From assembly GCF_000280925.3 (NCBI RefSeq), contig NZ_CP012109.1:1736001-1800000 (forward strand): a stretch of 64,000 nucleotides of DNA, written 5' to 3'. This DNA comes from Myxococcus hansupus (GTDB lineage: Bacteria; Myxococcota; Myxococcia; Myxococcales; Myxococcaceae). The position numbers were made by a program, and so were the translations under genes. The notes under the pieces were generated by a model. That model was not told the origin of the DNA. It saw only the letters and a program-made list of their open reading frames with translations, and made no database searches. Shown here piece by piece: positions 29,826 through 39,800 of the stretch (its first letter is position 1; each line of letters begins with the position of its first letter).

Positions 29826-29988
29826 TCCATCAGGAACGGCCGCCCGAGCCTCAGCGCGGCGGCTGTGCGTCAGCGCCAAAGGGCATGGCGGCCTTTCCCA
29901 CGCGCACTCCGTTCTCCCGCATGGGCCTGGGGCCCGGGAACGTCCTCGGGCTGGGCGGTTCCTCCGACGCCTCCCGGCGGTGTAAACG

Positions 29989-31905
29989 GTGGGGGTGAGC
30001 GAGCGATGGGAAGAACGCCTCCGCCGTGAAGCGAAGGAAATGGACGCCGCCATCCGTGGCGCCCTGGCGCGGCGACAGTCCGACGAGGAGCTCCTGACCG
30101 CGCTCGAGGCGCTCTCACGGCGCCCCCTCTTCCGCGCCTTCACCTGGTTGTGGGGCCCCGCGCTGAACGCGAAGGACCGCGTCCGCTTTCGCCCCTTCAT
30201 CCTGTCCTGCTTCTCCCCGAGCGGCATCAACGCTCAGGGGACGTGGATGCATGGCTGGGGCGGGGAAAATCTGGCCGCCCTGGAGCAATGGCTCTGGGAT
30301 GCCGATCGCGCCGATGACGTCGAGGTGTTCCGCCGTCTCTTCGCGTGGCGGTTGTCGACGCTGCGAGGCAAGCACCTCGACGCCACCTGGCGGGCCGAGG
30401 TGCTGATGCGTGCCCAGGCTGCTCGGACGCGCGCGGCGCGCCACATCGCCCTGGCCAAGGTCGACGTGGGCCTGGGCCGGATGGACGAGCCCACCGCACT
30501 GGCGCTGGATGCGTTGGACCCGGAGGTGGCCCGGTCCTTCATCCTGGAGCACCTGCCGTGGCGTTGGCAGAACACGCGCGAGCCCATGTGGGACACGCTG
30601 CGTGAGCGCGCCCAGGCCCGGGGAGACGCGGCGCTGGCTTCGGCTGTCTACCGGCGGCTGGTGGACGAAGACACCTGGCGGCAGGATGTCCTGGCGCTCG
30701 CGAGCACCCTCCGGGACCCCGCCACGCTGGTGCGCGAGTTGGAAGCACACCACCCTGAAAGCCTCGTGCCCAACGCCGCGCAGGTCTTCGTGGAGCTGGC
30801 GGAGGCCCGTGGACGCGACGTGGTGCCCTACCTGCTTGGCCATCTGCGCGCGGTGTTCCCTCGGCAGGGGATGGTGCGCCGCAAGAACGCGAAGGGCTTT
30901 CCGGAGCTGCTGGCGCTCGCGCGGGTCCGCGGCTGGGAGGATGTCTGGAGCGCGCTCCTGCGCACCTCCGCCACGGCGGAGACCTATGACGCCGAGGTGC
31001 GGCGGCTGTTGAACGACACCGACGCGGAGGAGGGCGTCACGCGTCGCCACCTGTTGCAGCTCGCGGGCGCGGGCGGCGAGGCGAACTTCCTCAGTTGGGG
31101 TGTGACGTGGGTCCAACCGCTGACGGATGCCACCGCCGTGGCGCTCTATGCGCACTTCCCGGAGCTGCTGCGAGGGCCCTTCCGCATGCACGTGGCCTCG
31201 GGCTGGCACTCCGCCTATCCCAAGCTGGTGACGCGCGCGCTGGAGGCGAACGACGAGGACCTGTTGGACTTCATCGCCAGCCGCGCCGCCATGCACGTGC
31301 CCTCGTTCGGCACGGCTCGGGAATGGGCGAGGGTGCTCGACGCGCTGTCCACCCACTACGAAGCCTTGCCGAAGGAAGGGGGCGCCTTCGCCCGTCGCGC
31401 CGCCAATGCCCTGGGGGCCCTTCCCGCGTATGCCATTGGCGCCATGCCCGTCCTGTTGGAGAAGAACCGGCTGGCACGGCTGTTCTTCCTGCGCTCGGAT
31501 GACTTCTACCTCGCGGAGCCCCGGGCGGTGCGCGACCTGCTGGAGGCGCCGCAGATTCACGTCCAGGCGCTCGCCTTCCGGCTGCTCGGCCGGAACTCCG
31601 CGCGGGCCCGCGAGCTGGCCGCGAGGAACAGGGACTTGCTCCAGGCCACCTTGCTGCGTCCGCTGCACCGTCGCACGCGGCACGCCGCCTTCGGCGCGCT
31701 GGCCAACGCCGCCGCCCATGACGTGGAGACCGCGCGGGCGCTGCTGCCTCGCGTGAGGGATGCCTTCGCGCTGCCGGACACGCGCTACCCCAAGGAGTCC
31801 CTGGTGGACCTGCTGGCCCAGATGCTGGCGCGCTGGCCCGAGCTGCGGATGCCCACCGAAATCCCCACCGTCTTCGGACCTTCGGCGGAAGGAGACCGCA
31901 CGTGA
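29989..31905 (+). CDS. ARM/HEAT-like helical-repeat protein of the retron
   Basis: A 638-residue soluble protein built of helix pairs, for example VRGWEDVWSALLRTSATAE and AQVFVELAEARGRDVVPYLLGHLRAVF. These read as ARM/HEAT-type repeats across most of its length. No enzyme motif is visible. It starts at GTG 29989 (or GTG 29995) without a strong ribosome site, and its TGA overlaps the GTG of the SWIM gene by 4 bases. The order ARM-like protein, SWIM protein, msr-msd, reverse transcriptase matches the partner set I remember for retron type XIII, in which one or both partners are thought to be the toxic effector held in check by the RT-msDNA complex. Function is inferred from context. Confidence 0.7.
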   Translation: MGVSERWEERLRREAKEMDAAIRGALARRQSDEELLTALEALSRRPLFRAFTWLWGPALNAKDRVRFRPFILSCFSPSGINAQGTWMHGWGGENLAALEQWLWDADRADDVEVFRRLFAWRLSTLRGKHLDATWRAEVLMRAQAARTRAARHIALAKVDVGLGRMDEPTALALDALDPEVARSFILEHLPWRWQNTREPMWDTLRERAQARGDAALASAVYRRLVDEDTWRQDVLALASTLRDPATLVRELEAHHPESLVPNAAQVFVELAEARGRDVVPYLLGHLRAVFPRQGMVRRKNAKGFPELLALARVRGWEDVWSALLRTSATAETYDAEVRRLLNDTDAEEGVTRRHLLQLAGAGGEANFLSWGVTWVQPLTDATAVALYAHFPELLRGPFRMHVASGWHSAYPKLVTRALEANDEDLLDFIASRAAMHVPSFGTAREWARVLDALSTHYEALPKEGGAFARRAANALGALPAYAIGAMPVLLEKNRLARLFFLRSDDFYLAEPRAVRDLLEAPQIHVQALAFRLLGRNSARARELAARNRDLLQATLLRPLHRRTRHAAFGALANAAAHDVETARALLPRVRDAFALPDTRYPKESLVDLLAQMLARWPELRMPTEIPTVFGPSAEGDRT

Positions 31906-33494
31906 CGGCTCTGGGCTTCCTGTACGCCACGCCCTCGGTGTTCGAGTCCACCCGCGAGCGCGCTCGGCTGGACTTGTCCGCGGACCAGCACCGGCCCGTG
32001 CGCTTCCACGCGCGGGTCGCCCGGGACGTGCTCTCGCTCCGGCTCGCGCTCCAGGCCCTGGGCGGCCTCATCTGGCATTCGGATGAGTGGAACCTGGGAA
32101 GCAGCGCAGGACTGCTGGACCCACTCATCACCGTCCATCCCGACCGCGTCTTCTTCGAGGCCTTCAGCCAGGACCAGAGCAGCTACGGGCTCGTCATCGT
32201 GGACCGGGACATCTTCGTTCCGGAAGGCGACGTGCGCTGCGGCACCACCAACGTGGACTTCACGGCGTGGTTGTGGGCGGCGCTGGGGGAGATGCGCTCC
32301 AGCCGGGAAACCCATCTGCGCATCGGTCCGGAAGGCTTCGACGTGCGCACCGGCGGCGCGGGCGGCCGTTTCGAGCAGAAGGTGGAGGTCCCCGAAGCCT
32401 GGGTGCGAGGCCTGCTCCAGTTGCAGGGGGCCATGGCGATGCCCGGCACGCGGTTGTCGGTGCGCCCCGTGGACCTGCTCGCGGCGGTGCGTTTCCTCAG
32501 CCACACCAAGGCCCGCATGTCGCCTCGCGCTCTGCGCTATGAGTTCGAGCCAGGGCAGGACGCGCGGCTGATGCTGGAGCCGTGGGAGCACCCCATCCCC
32601 TTGCGAGGCGCGGCCCATGGCTACACGGAGCCGCGCACCATCCGCACCTGGGGCCGGCGCCGGTTGCGCCTGCTGGAGCCGCTGCTGCCTTATGCGGAGC
32701 GGGTGGACATCTATCTGAAAGGCCGCGCGCTTCCGCACTTCTACGTGGCGCACCTGCCCGGCGGTGTGCGCTTCCTGCTGGGCCTGTCCGGATGGACGGA
32801 GAACCGCTGGACCCACACCTCGGGGCTGGACCTGCTCCTGGAGCCCACGCGCGATGCGGCACTCGCCGAGCGCGTGCTCGCCGTCCTGCGCGAGCGCTTC
32901 CACGCGTCGACGGAGGACGTGGCCACGGCCCTGGGGGTGGACGTGGCCCAGGCCGCTGGGGCTCTGGCTGCGCAATGCGCGGCCGGGCGCGTGCTCTTCG
33001 ACGTGGAGGCCCGGCGCTGGCGCCACCGTGAACTCTTCGCCACGCCCGTGGACCTGGACCGGATGTATCCGCCCGACCCGCGCCGCGAGGACGCGGAGCG
33101 CTTGGAGGCCGCGGGCGCGGTGGAAATCACCTCCGCGGCGCCGCGCGAGACACGCAAGGTGCGCAGGCTGCCCACGCCGGAGGGCTCCATCACCCGTGAA
33201 ATCGTTCTGCGGGACTGGGTGGTTCACGGCCGCGCGGGCGACCAGTCCGATATCGAGCTGGTGCTGAACGACGAGGACCGGCTCCTCTTTGGCCGTTGCG
33301 GTTGTGAGGCCTTCCGCGAGCACCTGCTCAACCGGGGGCCCTGTACCCACATGCTGGCGCTGCTCCGGCGCGCGCGGGTGCAACGTCGCGAGCTGGCCAG
33401 CTCCCAACCCGCCCCGGAGGACGCGCGCGCCGCACCTCGCGCGTCGCGGGAGGCCGCGCTTGACCCGGAGGGCGCCGATGACGATAACGGTTGA
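31902..33494 (+). CDS. winged-helix SWIM zinc-finger protein of the retron
   Basis: A 530-residue protein with a C-terminal SWIM zinc finger: the CxC...CxH ligands are Cys466, Cys468, Cys481 and His483 (GRCGCEAFREHL to GPCTHML). A helix-turn-helix-like segment lies at about residues 320-367 (AERVLAVLRERFHASTEDVA then TALGVDVAQAAGALAAQ), consistent with a winged helix. The N-terminal 300 residues are of mixed alpha/beta type without a known domain. SWIM fingers bind nucleic acid or protein. Its GTG start overlaps the stop of the ARM-like gene, and its stop lies 6 bases before the retron RNA element. It is probably a retron partner or effector; the mechanism is unknown. Confidence 0.78.
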   Translation: MTALGFLYATPSVFESTRERARLDLSADQHRPVRFHARVARDVLSLRLALQALGGLIWHSDEWNLGSSAGLLDPLITVHPDRVFFEAFSQDQSSYGLVIVDRDIFVPEGDVRCGTTNVDFTAWLWAALGEMRSSRETHLRIGPEGFDVRTGGAGGRFEQKVEVPEAWVRGLLQLQGAMAMPGTRLSVRPVDLLAAVRFLSHTKARMSPRALRYEFEPGQDARLMLEPWEHPIPLRGAAHGYTEPRTIRTWGRRRLRLLEPLLPYAERVDIYLKGRALPHFYVAHLPGGVRFLLGLSGWTENRWTHTSGLDLLLEPTRDAALAERVLAVLRERFHASTEDVATALGVDVAQAAGALAAQCAAGRVLFDVEARRWRHRELFATPVDLDRMYPPDPRREDAERLEAAGAVEITSAAPRETRKVRRLPTPEGSITREIVLRDWVVHGRAGDQSDIELVLNDEDRLLFGRCGCEAFREHLLNRGPCTHMLALLRRARVQRRELASSQPAPEDARAAPRASREAALDPEGADDDNG

Positions 33495-33499
33495 CGCTC

Positions 33500-33653
33500 T
33501 CGGGAGAGGCCAGGGCTCGCAGATGAGCCATTCGTCCCGCGGTGTTTCGCCGCGGGGGAGTTCTGTTCCCTTCTCTTCGCCAGGGTCCCAGCGTACGCAA
33601 CGCTGGGAGCCCCGGGTCCAGCGCCTCGCAAGTCATCCCCTGGCCTCTTCCGG
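33500..33653 (+). ncRNA. retron msr-msd RNA (predicted)
   Basis: The gap between the SWIM and RT genes has the architecture of a retron primary transcript. The ends pair: 33501-33515 (CGGGAGAGGCCAGGG) with 33638-33652 (CCCTGGCCTCTTCCG) gives 15 pairs including one G-U, which are the a1/a2 arms. Inside, an msr stem-loop pairs CCCGCGG (33536-33542) with CCGCGGG (33550-33556) around the loop TGTTTCG. An msd hairpin pairs TCCCAGCG (33586-33593) with CGCTGGGA (33601-33608) around TACGCAA, extended by GGG/CCC with one bulge. If reverse transcription starts next to a2 at about 33636 and stops near 33570, the msDNA is about 65 nt, close to the known Mx65. The branching G is not certain (candidates 33522 or 33526). 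Confidence 0.78.
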
Positions 33654-33659
33654 AGCACC

Positions 33660-34946
33660 ATGAGCTGGCTCGACTCCACCCTGTCCTGGCTCAAGGCGCG
33701 GTTCACCCGCCCCGTGACTCGCAGCACCACCGGACTGGACGCTCCGGTGGACGCGCAGGGGCGGCGCGTGGACGTGGTGAGCGAAACCGTCGTCATGTCG
33801 GGGCCGCTGAAGCCGGGCCACCTGCGGCAGATTCACCGGGACGCGCGGCTGCTGCCCAAGCCGCAGCGCCGCTACACGCCGGGCCGCGCGAAGTGGATGC
33901 CCGCGGCGGAGGCCCGTCGGCTCTTCTCCGGCACGCTGCGCACGCGCAATCGGAACCTGAGGGACCTGCTGCCCGACGAGGCGCAGCTCGCGCGCTACGG
34001 GCTGCCGGTGTGGCGCACGGAGGAGGACGTGGCCGCGGCCCTGGGCATCTCCGTGGGCATGCTCCGCCACTACAGCATCCACCGCTCCCGTGAGCGGGTG
34101 CGGCACTATGTGACGTTCGCCGTCCCCAAGCGCACCGGGGGCGTCCGTCTGCTGCATGCACCCAAGCGTCGCTTGAAGGCCTTGCAGCGGAAGTTGCTCG
34201 AAGTGCTGGTGTCGAAGCTGCCCGTGAGCCAGCAGGCGCATGGCTTCGTCTCGGGACGCTCCATCAAGACGGGCGCGCAGCCCCACGTGGGCCGGCGGGT
34301 GGTGTTGAAGCTGGACCTGAAGGACTTCTTTCCGTCCGTCACCTCGGCGCGGGTCCGCGGTCTGTTCATCGCCCTGGGCTATGGCTACGCCGTCGCGGCG
34401 ACGCTCGCGGTGCTGCTGACGGAGTCCGAGCGCCAGCCCGTGGACATCGAGGGCACCGTCTTCCACGTTCCTGTGGGCCCACGCGTCTGTGTCCAGGGCG
34501 CGCCCACCAGCCCGGCGCTGTGCAACGCGGTGCTAATGCGCCTGGACCGGCGGCTGGCCGGACTGGCTCGACGCTATGGCTACACCTATACGCGCTACGC
34601 GGACGACCTGACCTTCTCCGGTGATGACCTTTCCGCGCTGGAGCGGGTGCGCGCGCTGGCCGCGCGGTATGTGCAGGAAGAGGGCTTCACCGTGAACCGG
34701 GACAAGACACGGGTGCGGCGCCGGGGCGGCGCCCAACGTGTCACGGGCGTCACCGTGAACGCGACGCTGGGCCTGTCTCGCGAGGAGCGCCGCCGCCTGC
34801 GCGCGATGCTCCACCAGGAAGGGCGGGACGGCGAGGACTCGACACGGCGCGCGTACCTCGATGGCATGCTCGCGTACGTGAAGATGCTCAACCCGGAGCA
34901 GGCCGCGCGGCTCGTTCGCAAGCGCAAGCCCCGTGCGGGTGGGTGA
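33660..34946 (+). CDS. retron reverse transcriptase
   Basis: A 428-residue reverse transcriptase. The catalytic motif YADD is at residues 313-316, the motif A aspartate is in KLDLKDFF (Asp219), QGAPTSP is at 279-285, and the retron-type VTG block (VTGVTVN) begins at 361. An N-terminal extension of about 150 residues precedes the polymerase domain, as in myxobacterial retron RTs. Its length matches what I recall for the Mx65 enzyme (427 residues) rather than Mx162 (485). It makes the branched RNA-DNA msDNA from the adjoining RNA. ATG 33660 is 6 bases after the a2 arm and follows CGGAG. No protease or other fusion is present. Confidence 0.93.
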   Translation: MSWLDSTLSWLKARFTRPVTRSTTGLDAPVDAQGRRVDVVSETVVMSGPLKPGHLRQIHRDARLLPKPQRRYTPGRAKWMPAAEARRLFSGTLRTRNRNLRDLLPDEAQLARYGLPVWRTEEDVAAALGISVGMLRHYSIHRSRERVRHYVTFAVPKRTGGVRLLHAPKRRLKALQRKLLEVLVSKLPVSQQAHGFVSGRSIKTGAQPHVGRRVVLKLDLKDFFPSVTSARVRGLFIALGYGYAVAATLAVLLTESERQPVDIEGTVFHVPVGPRVCVQGAPTSPALCNAVLMRLDRRLAGLARRYGYTYTRYADDLTFSGDDLSALERVRALAARYVQEEGFTVNRDKTRVRRRGGAQRVTGVTVNATLGLSREERRRLRAMLHQEGRDGEDSTRRAYLDGMLAYVKMLNPEQAARLVRKRKPRAGG

Positions 34947-39471: not shown

Positions 39472-39548
<77 letters not shown>

Positions 39549-39600
39549 ACATCGGTACGACACGCGGCAGGGTGAAACTTCTGCCCTCACCCTAAAGGCG

Positions 39601-39632
39601 AAGGGCCCGGAACCTTGCGGATCCGGGCCCTT
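39601..39632. terminator. strong hairpin between the two tRNA-Asp genes
   Basis: AAGGGCCCGGA (39601-39611) pairs with TCCGGGCCCTT (39622-39632), 11 bp and a 10-base loop. Read leftward there is no strong U run after it, so it may be a processing or partial termination signal. It looks like a former terminator left behind when the tRNA-Asp unit was duplicated. Confidence 0.5.
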
Positions 39633-39637
39633 CTATT

Positions 39638-39714
<77 letters not shown>

Positions 39715-39728
39715 ACATCGGTACGACT

Positions 39729-39800
39729 TGGGCGGAACAGGGATTGAACCTGTGACCATCGCCTTGTAAGGGCGCCGCTCTACCGCTGAGCTATCCGCCC
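39729..39800 (-). tRNA. tRNA-Val(TAC)
   Basis: A 72-base leftward tRNA. The acceptor GGGCGG pairs with CCGCCC, the D arm is GCTCAGCGGTAGAGC, the anticodon loop is CTTACAA (anticodon TAC) and the T arm is CAGGTTCAATCCCTG. CCA is not encoded (the next bases are AGT), unlike the tRNA-Asp genes. First gene of the operon. Confidence 0.93.

Follow-up and report, generated by a model that had tools for sequence, protein, structure and literature searches.

The Mx65 retron of myxobacteria has been known since the 1980s, and type XIII retrons include the first msDNAs ever found. To our knowledge, what the msDNAs of myxobacteria do has been an open question ever since they were discovered. The branching G of Mx65 (Retron-Mxa2) lies in the motif GAGC, and the Asn of the NAXXH motif in its reverse transcriptase (RT) is substituted (PMC6868368). 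The Mx65 RT is listed as M. xanthus DSM 16526 FNOH01000027.1_37959_39242 (PMC8934634, Table 2), and the locus compared here (G007:C27:37959) was taken as Mx65 by inference from its contig number, start and length (a 427-aa frame).

We have analysed a stretch of 64,000 nucleotides from Myxococcus hansupus (NZ_CP012109.1, positions 1,736,001 to 1,800,000; referred to as the window), in which an original prediction had placed a compact msr-msd of the Mx65 class, yielding an msDNA of about 65 nt, within a 165-base gap between a SWIM gene and an RT gene. The ends of the open reading frames bear out this gap, with the SWIM stop at 33494 and the RT start at 33660, leaving 165 nt of intergenic DNA (33495-33659). 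Judged from sequence, the gap very probably holds the msr-msd belonging to a type XIII retron orthologous to Retron-Mxa2 (Mx65), in a cassette with four parts: a helical-repeat protein, a SWIM protein, the RNA and the RT (Table 1).

Table 1. Features of the retron cassette, in positions of the window.
Feature	Position	Strand	Evidence or remark
Helical-repeat (HEAT/ARM-like) protein, 638 aa, first cassette gene	29989..31905	+	4-base overlap with SWIM start
Type XIII SWIM protein, 530 aa	31902..33494	+	PADLOC SWIM_XIII, E 6.3e-144
Promoter-like TTGACC-N17-GATAAC at SWIM gene end	33460..33488	+	Conserved spacing; expected start about 33494-33496
a1	33496..33515	+	4 + 15 pairs with a2; fold and compensatory changes
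Bulge CTCGCA, 6 nt, between outer and inner a1/a2 helices	33516..33521	+	Fold
Inner a1 helix, GATGA	33522..33526	+	Partner 33633-33637; 94% of cells paired in 21 sequences; GC/UA/CG at pair 33525-33634
Predicted branching G, third base of GAGC (33525-33528)	33527..33527	+	Published Mx65 context; conservation
msr hairpin with UUU loop	33536..33556	+	100% of cells paired in 21 sequences; compensatory changes
Putative msd template for 65-nt msDNA (DNA is the complement)	33568..33632	+	Placed by inference
msd hairpin	33580..33616	+	Paired in 89.5% of cells (21 sequences); changes on both sides at 3 pairs
a2: inner TCATC, then outer strand	33633..33656	+	Fold and covariation; 3' end spans the RT ribosome-binding site (GGAG)
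Retron reverse transcriptase, 428 aa	33660..34946	+	PADLOC RT_XIII, E 3.9e-135

Both the RT and the SWIM protein matched the PADLOC models for type XIII (Table 1), and alignment of the RT revealed the YADD (TRYADDL) and VTG (RVTGV) motifs. In region X the RT has GAQPH rather than NAXXH, but the missing Asn does not exclude membership among the retrons, since Mx65 itself is without it (PMC6868368). Complementary a1/a2 ends, with the predicted branching G just inside them, were found upstream of the RT gene. Alignment with the published Mx65, which had been proposed as a check, was run against the M. xanthus DSM 16526 locus and showed 154 of the 165 gap bases to be identical (93%) with no indel. 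The predicted assignment to the Mx65 class is borne out by the 86% identity of the RTs, the ungapped 93% identity of the gap, the GAGC context and the substituted Asn. As the alignment is free of indels, the figure of 65 nt was carried over from M. xanthus, and the msDNA would likewise be about 65 nt long here. Most of the Mx65-type relatives have a short segment resembling W-[LFI]-K-x-[LVI]-[FL] near the N-terminus of the RT (33660-33720, residues 1-20), which could be a binding peptide, e.g. for the clamp-like SWIM protein of the cassette.

Folding of the gap RNA gave -92.5 kcal/mol (z -5.54), and none of 200 dinucleotide shuffles folded as well. The original prediction had described a 15-bp a1/a2 pairing (33501-33515 with 33638-33652), an msr hairpin with a UUU loop and an msd hairpin with GGG/CCC flanks. 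In the fold all 15 pairs are formed, one of them as G-U, the msr hairpin is present, and the msd hairpin (33586-33594 with 33600-33608) is extended by the pairing of GGG 33583-33585 with CCC 33610-33612. Two further helices had been overlooked: an inner a1/a2 helix of 5 bp, which adjoins G33527, and an outer extension of 4 bp (33496-33499 with 33653-33656). The msd template was placed by counting 65 nt back from the base beyond the inner helix, and the RNA of Mx65, which we take to be 49 nt long, would fit positions 33524-33572. A second msr stem (33556-33570) was dropped as a conserved element, being just 58% paired in the alignment of 21 sequences. The Rfam scan at gathering threshold reported no retron RNA at the locus; it matched only three tRNAs. 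Three tRNA genes lie in a row on the minus strand of the window (39475-39800), two of them with equal model score.

The RNA and the RT occur together in 15 of the 25 genomes of the genus Myxococcus that were searched, and also in other Myxococcaceae, an Archangium assembly, three Verrucomicrobia assemblies and Steroidobacter agaridevorans; distant members retain the four-part order. In the 21-sequence alignment, 88.0% of the cells of the core structure were paired, compared with 43-48% when the partners were slid. Changes on both sides were seen in 8 pairs (28 cells) of the core, against shuffled means of 4.6 and 8.6; the aligned sequences are kin and the shuffles are therefore not read as probabilities, while the slid controls retain this relatedness. 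Within Myxococcus the full structure was paired to 94.4% (45-52% with slid partners), with compensatory changes at 33498-33654 (U-A/A-U), 33507-33646 (A-U/G-C) and 33590-33604. The branch site AGCC did not vary among the 21 sequences, and TAGC or CAGC contexts were found in distant ones. Pair 33590-33604 of the msd hairpin cannot form in 5 of the 11 Myxococcus sequences, and some a1/a2 positions are mismatched among relatives (33506-33647, for example, in 6/11 Myxococcus sequences). Cognate a1/a2 duplexes were stronger than the mean non-cognate ones, and the best non-cognate duplex often tied, owing to arms shared among close relatives and to the high G+C content of the strands, which makes the duplex comparison a weaker test than the pair counts.

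A covariance model built from the core RNA structure gave 22 strong matches across the class (E 1e-28 or better) and four further weak ones (E about 1e-4 to 1e-5). The genomes with a strong match are precisely the 22 that have a close SWIM homologue. The original prediction had named two outcomes that would speak against it, an Mx65 msr-msd lying elsewhere and a lack of compensatory a1/a2 changes in related strains. The changes are seen in the relatives, and the RNA model finds a single copy in the 9.49-Mb genome, which is the one described here.

The conserved structure might instead act in cis to control translation of the RT only, without serving as an msDNA template. The ribosome-binding site of the RT (GGAG, 33653-33656) is indeed paired in the outer a1/a2 helix, so that folding of the RNA may limit RT translation, and the pairs spanning this site covary within Myxococcus. 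However, the invariant part of the RNA consists of the branch site, the msr hairpin and the msd hairpin and not of the ribosome-binding site, the structure persists in distant members, where a greater distance separates a2 from the RT start, and the equivalent in M. xanthus is the known Mx65. Control of translation as the sole function is hence very unlikely, albeit an msDNA template and an element controlling RT translation could be one and the same RNA. Even less probable is that the locus is a degenerate relic no longer making msDNA. The three reading frames and the YADD motif are intact, and the RNA is better conserved than the genes (93% identity with M. xanthus DSM 16526, whereas the whole cassette has about 82% nucleotide identity with other Myxococcus).

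A promoter-like element is located at the end of the SWIM gene (Table 1). TTGAC-N17/18-GATAA is present in the sequences from Myxococcus and in L093 and L096-L098, with its end 37-39 bases ahead of the A of the branch site, and the element keeps this distance although the SWIM reading frame ends at shifting positions. A generic sigma-70 scan reported no promoter at the locus; the scan accepts only -10 elements that end in T and therefore missed GATAAC. The conserved spacing argues for a promoter despite this result, an argument from consensus and conservation, and transcription would then begin at a1, from a promoter inside the SWIM gene.

The protein encoded by the first gene of the cassette has homologues (39-75% identity) immediately preceding SWIM in those Mx65-type relatives that were tested, among them Verrucomicrobia and Steroidobacter. 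Its AF2 model (pLDDT 87.7) is almost entirely helical and built of repeats, and the best Foldseek matches were HEAT/ARM repeat proteins, weak and naming no family. The protein had no match in PADLOC or Pfam. The PADLOC model HEAT-ARM_XIII misses it and matches its counterpart in the same position at the Mx162-like locus of the same genome. The composition of type XIII has been catalogued before, and the Mx65 branch represents a divergent version. At the DNA level, similarity to other species starts and stops at the cassette (29976-34946). In a related Myxococcus that is without the cassette (G024), the flanks (to 29828 and from 35053) lie 59 bases apart (G024:C1:158014-158074), and elsewhere in Myxococcus the cassette occupies other sites, which are common to groups of species. 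The empty site and the varied locations mean that the cassette has been gained, lost or moved.

The SWIM protein comprises a predicted sliding-clamp fold (residues ~34-297), a winged helix (~312-375) and a SWIM zinc finger (C466, C468, C481 and H483), whose CxC...CxH motif is invariant. The AF2 model, made with 13 homologues, had a pLDDT of 73.7 and a pTM of 0.74, with patches of low confidence. When this model was searched against the PDB with Foldseek, sliding clamps came out on top (PCNA, E 3.8e-9), with 461 chains at E 1e-3 or better. VIA-align gave Z 18.0 with PCNA (rmsd 3.0, 230 residues aligned) and Z 17.9 with a 9-1-1 subunit, the matched range being residues 34-297, and 544 chains reached a Z of at least 8; unrelated models commonly score under 8, a level that 18 clearly exceeds. 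The winged helix had a weak match to 3tgn (E 0.017) in a profile search against PDB sequences. Conserved basic residues in or near predicted helices (R41, R47, R132, R135, R197 and R252-R254) would suit contact with DNA.

At the level of sequence, a profile search of Pfam and the PDB returned no match between the SWIM protein and clamps, the alignments being shallow. Nor did hhalign match the clamp region with the host DnaN, at a Neff of about 2 and with an automatically assembled DnaN set in which some rows are perhaps in wrong frames. A profile search of the source genome found no PCNA_N. The N-terminal half of the SWIM protein is predicted, from one structure prediction, to be built like the sliding clamps. 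In our literature search no paper linking retrons with a sliding-clamp fold was found, which does not show that the link is unreported. Distant relatives of the SWIM protein, with 32-33% identity, were detected at G003:C2:1168513, G004:C8:110022, G005:C14:194604 and G125:C371:56094; in all four genomes the C-terminal match runs past an in-frame TGA.

From these data the following mechanism can be proposed. The RNA would start near 33495, from the promoter inside the SWIM gene, and the a1/a2 pairing would present G33527 as the branch point. The RT would then prime from the 2'-OH of G33527 and copy from about 33632 down to 33568, giving a branched msDNA of about 65 nt. Less confidently, the RT, the msDNA, the SWIM protein and the helical-repeat protein may form a complex that keeps a toxic activity in check and gives way when disturbed by a phage, as suggested by analogy with other retrons. 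On the same analogy we lean towards a role of the cassette in defence; no paper testing a type XIII retron for phage defence was found in our literature search. The clamp-like fold would suggest that the toxic activity, or the process sensed, concerns DNA replication, a step based on the structural model and put forward here only tentatively. In the same speculative vein, the SWIM clamp might pose as the host sliding clamp and halt replication once the retron is triggered, or it might clamp the msDNA or its RT.

The value of the RNA part lies in a clean model of covariation for RNAs of the Mx65 type, drawn from several phyla, with a predicted branch point and promoter. The retron itself has a known element as its ortholog, and the clamp-like partner is the surprise; a clamp-like fold in a conserved partner protein would, if true, tie type XIII retrons to DNA replication.

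The genome contains a second type XIII retron, which is Mx162-like (G000:C1:8460500-8468500) and consists of HEAT-ARM, SWIM, a 400-nt gap and an RT of 484 aa. The original prediction had set the present locus apart from the larger Mx162 (Retron-Mxa1) class and had taken the RT length to agree, and with such dimensions at the second locus, size does separate the two classes. An Mx162-class retron at 33495-33659 would have the same type XIII protein set, and the order HEAT-ARM, SWIM, RNA gap and RT is shared. In contrast to the locus studied here, the one resembling Mx162 (about 8463-8467 kb of G000:C1) has the longer gap and RT, a 617-aa SWIM protein and a canonical NAXXH motif (NALAH); the RTs of the two loci are 46% identical, and the Mx65-type RNA model has no match there. 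We therefore give almost no credence to an assignment of 33495-33659 to the Mx162 class. A third RT in the genome (466 aa; G000:C1, about 1388.4-1389.8 kb; L108:3928-5328) has RT_other as its best PADLOC match and sits between sigma-factor-like and DnaK-like genes, which were named by eye from their translations; none of the SWIM-family matches of the genome falls near it.

With the PCNA, 9-1-1 and DnaN clamps the likeness is in the predicted fold alone, within SWIM residues 34-297; the identity is 8-13%, and the SWIM protein has the winged helix and the SWIM finger in addition. Retron-Mxa2 (Mx65), on the other hand, shares with the M. hansupus locus the gene order, the length of the gap, the GAGC motif, the substituted Asn of NAXXH and nearly the length of the RT (427 aa, compared with 428 aa here). 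The two differ at 11 of the 165 gap bases, with the msd hairpin pair 33590/33604 being A-U in the window copy and A-A in M. xanthus, and the window cassette is located at a different chromosomal site from the Mx65 of M. xanthus.
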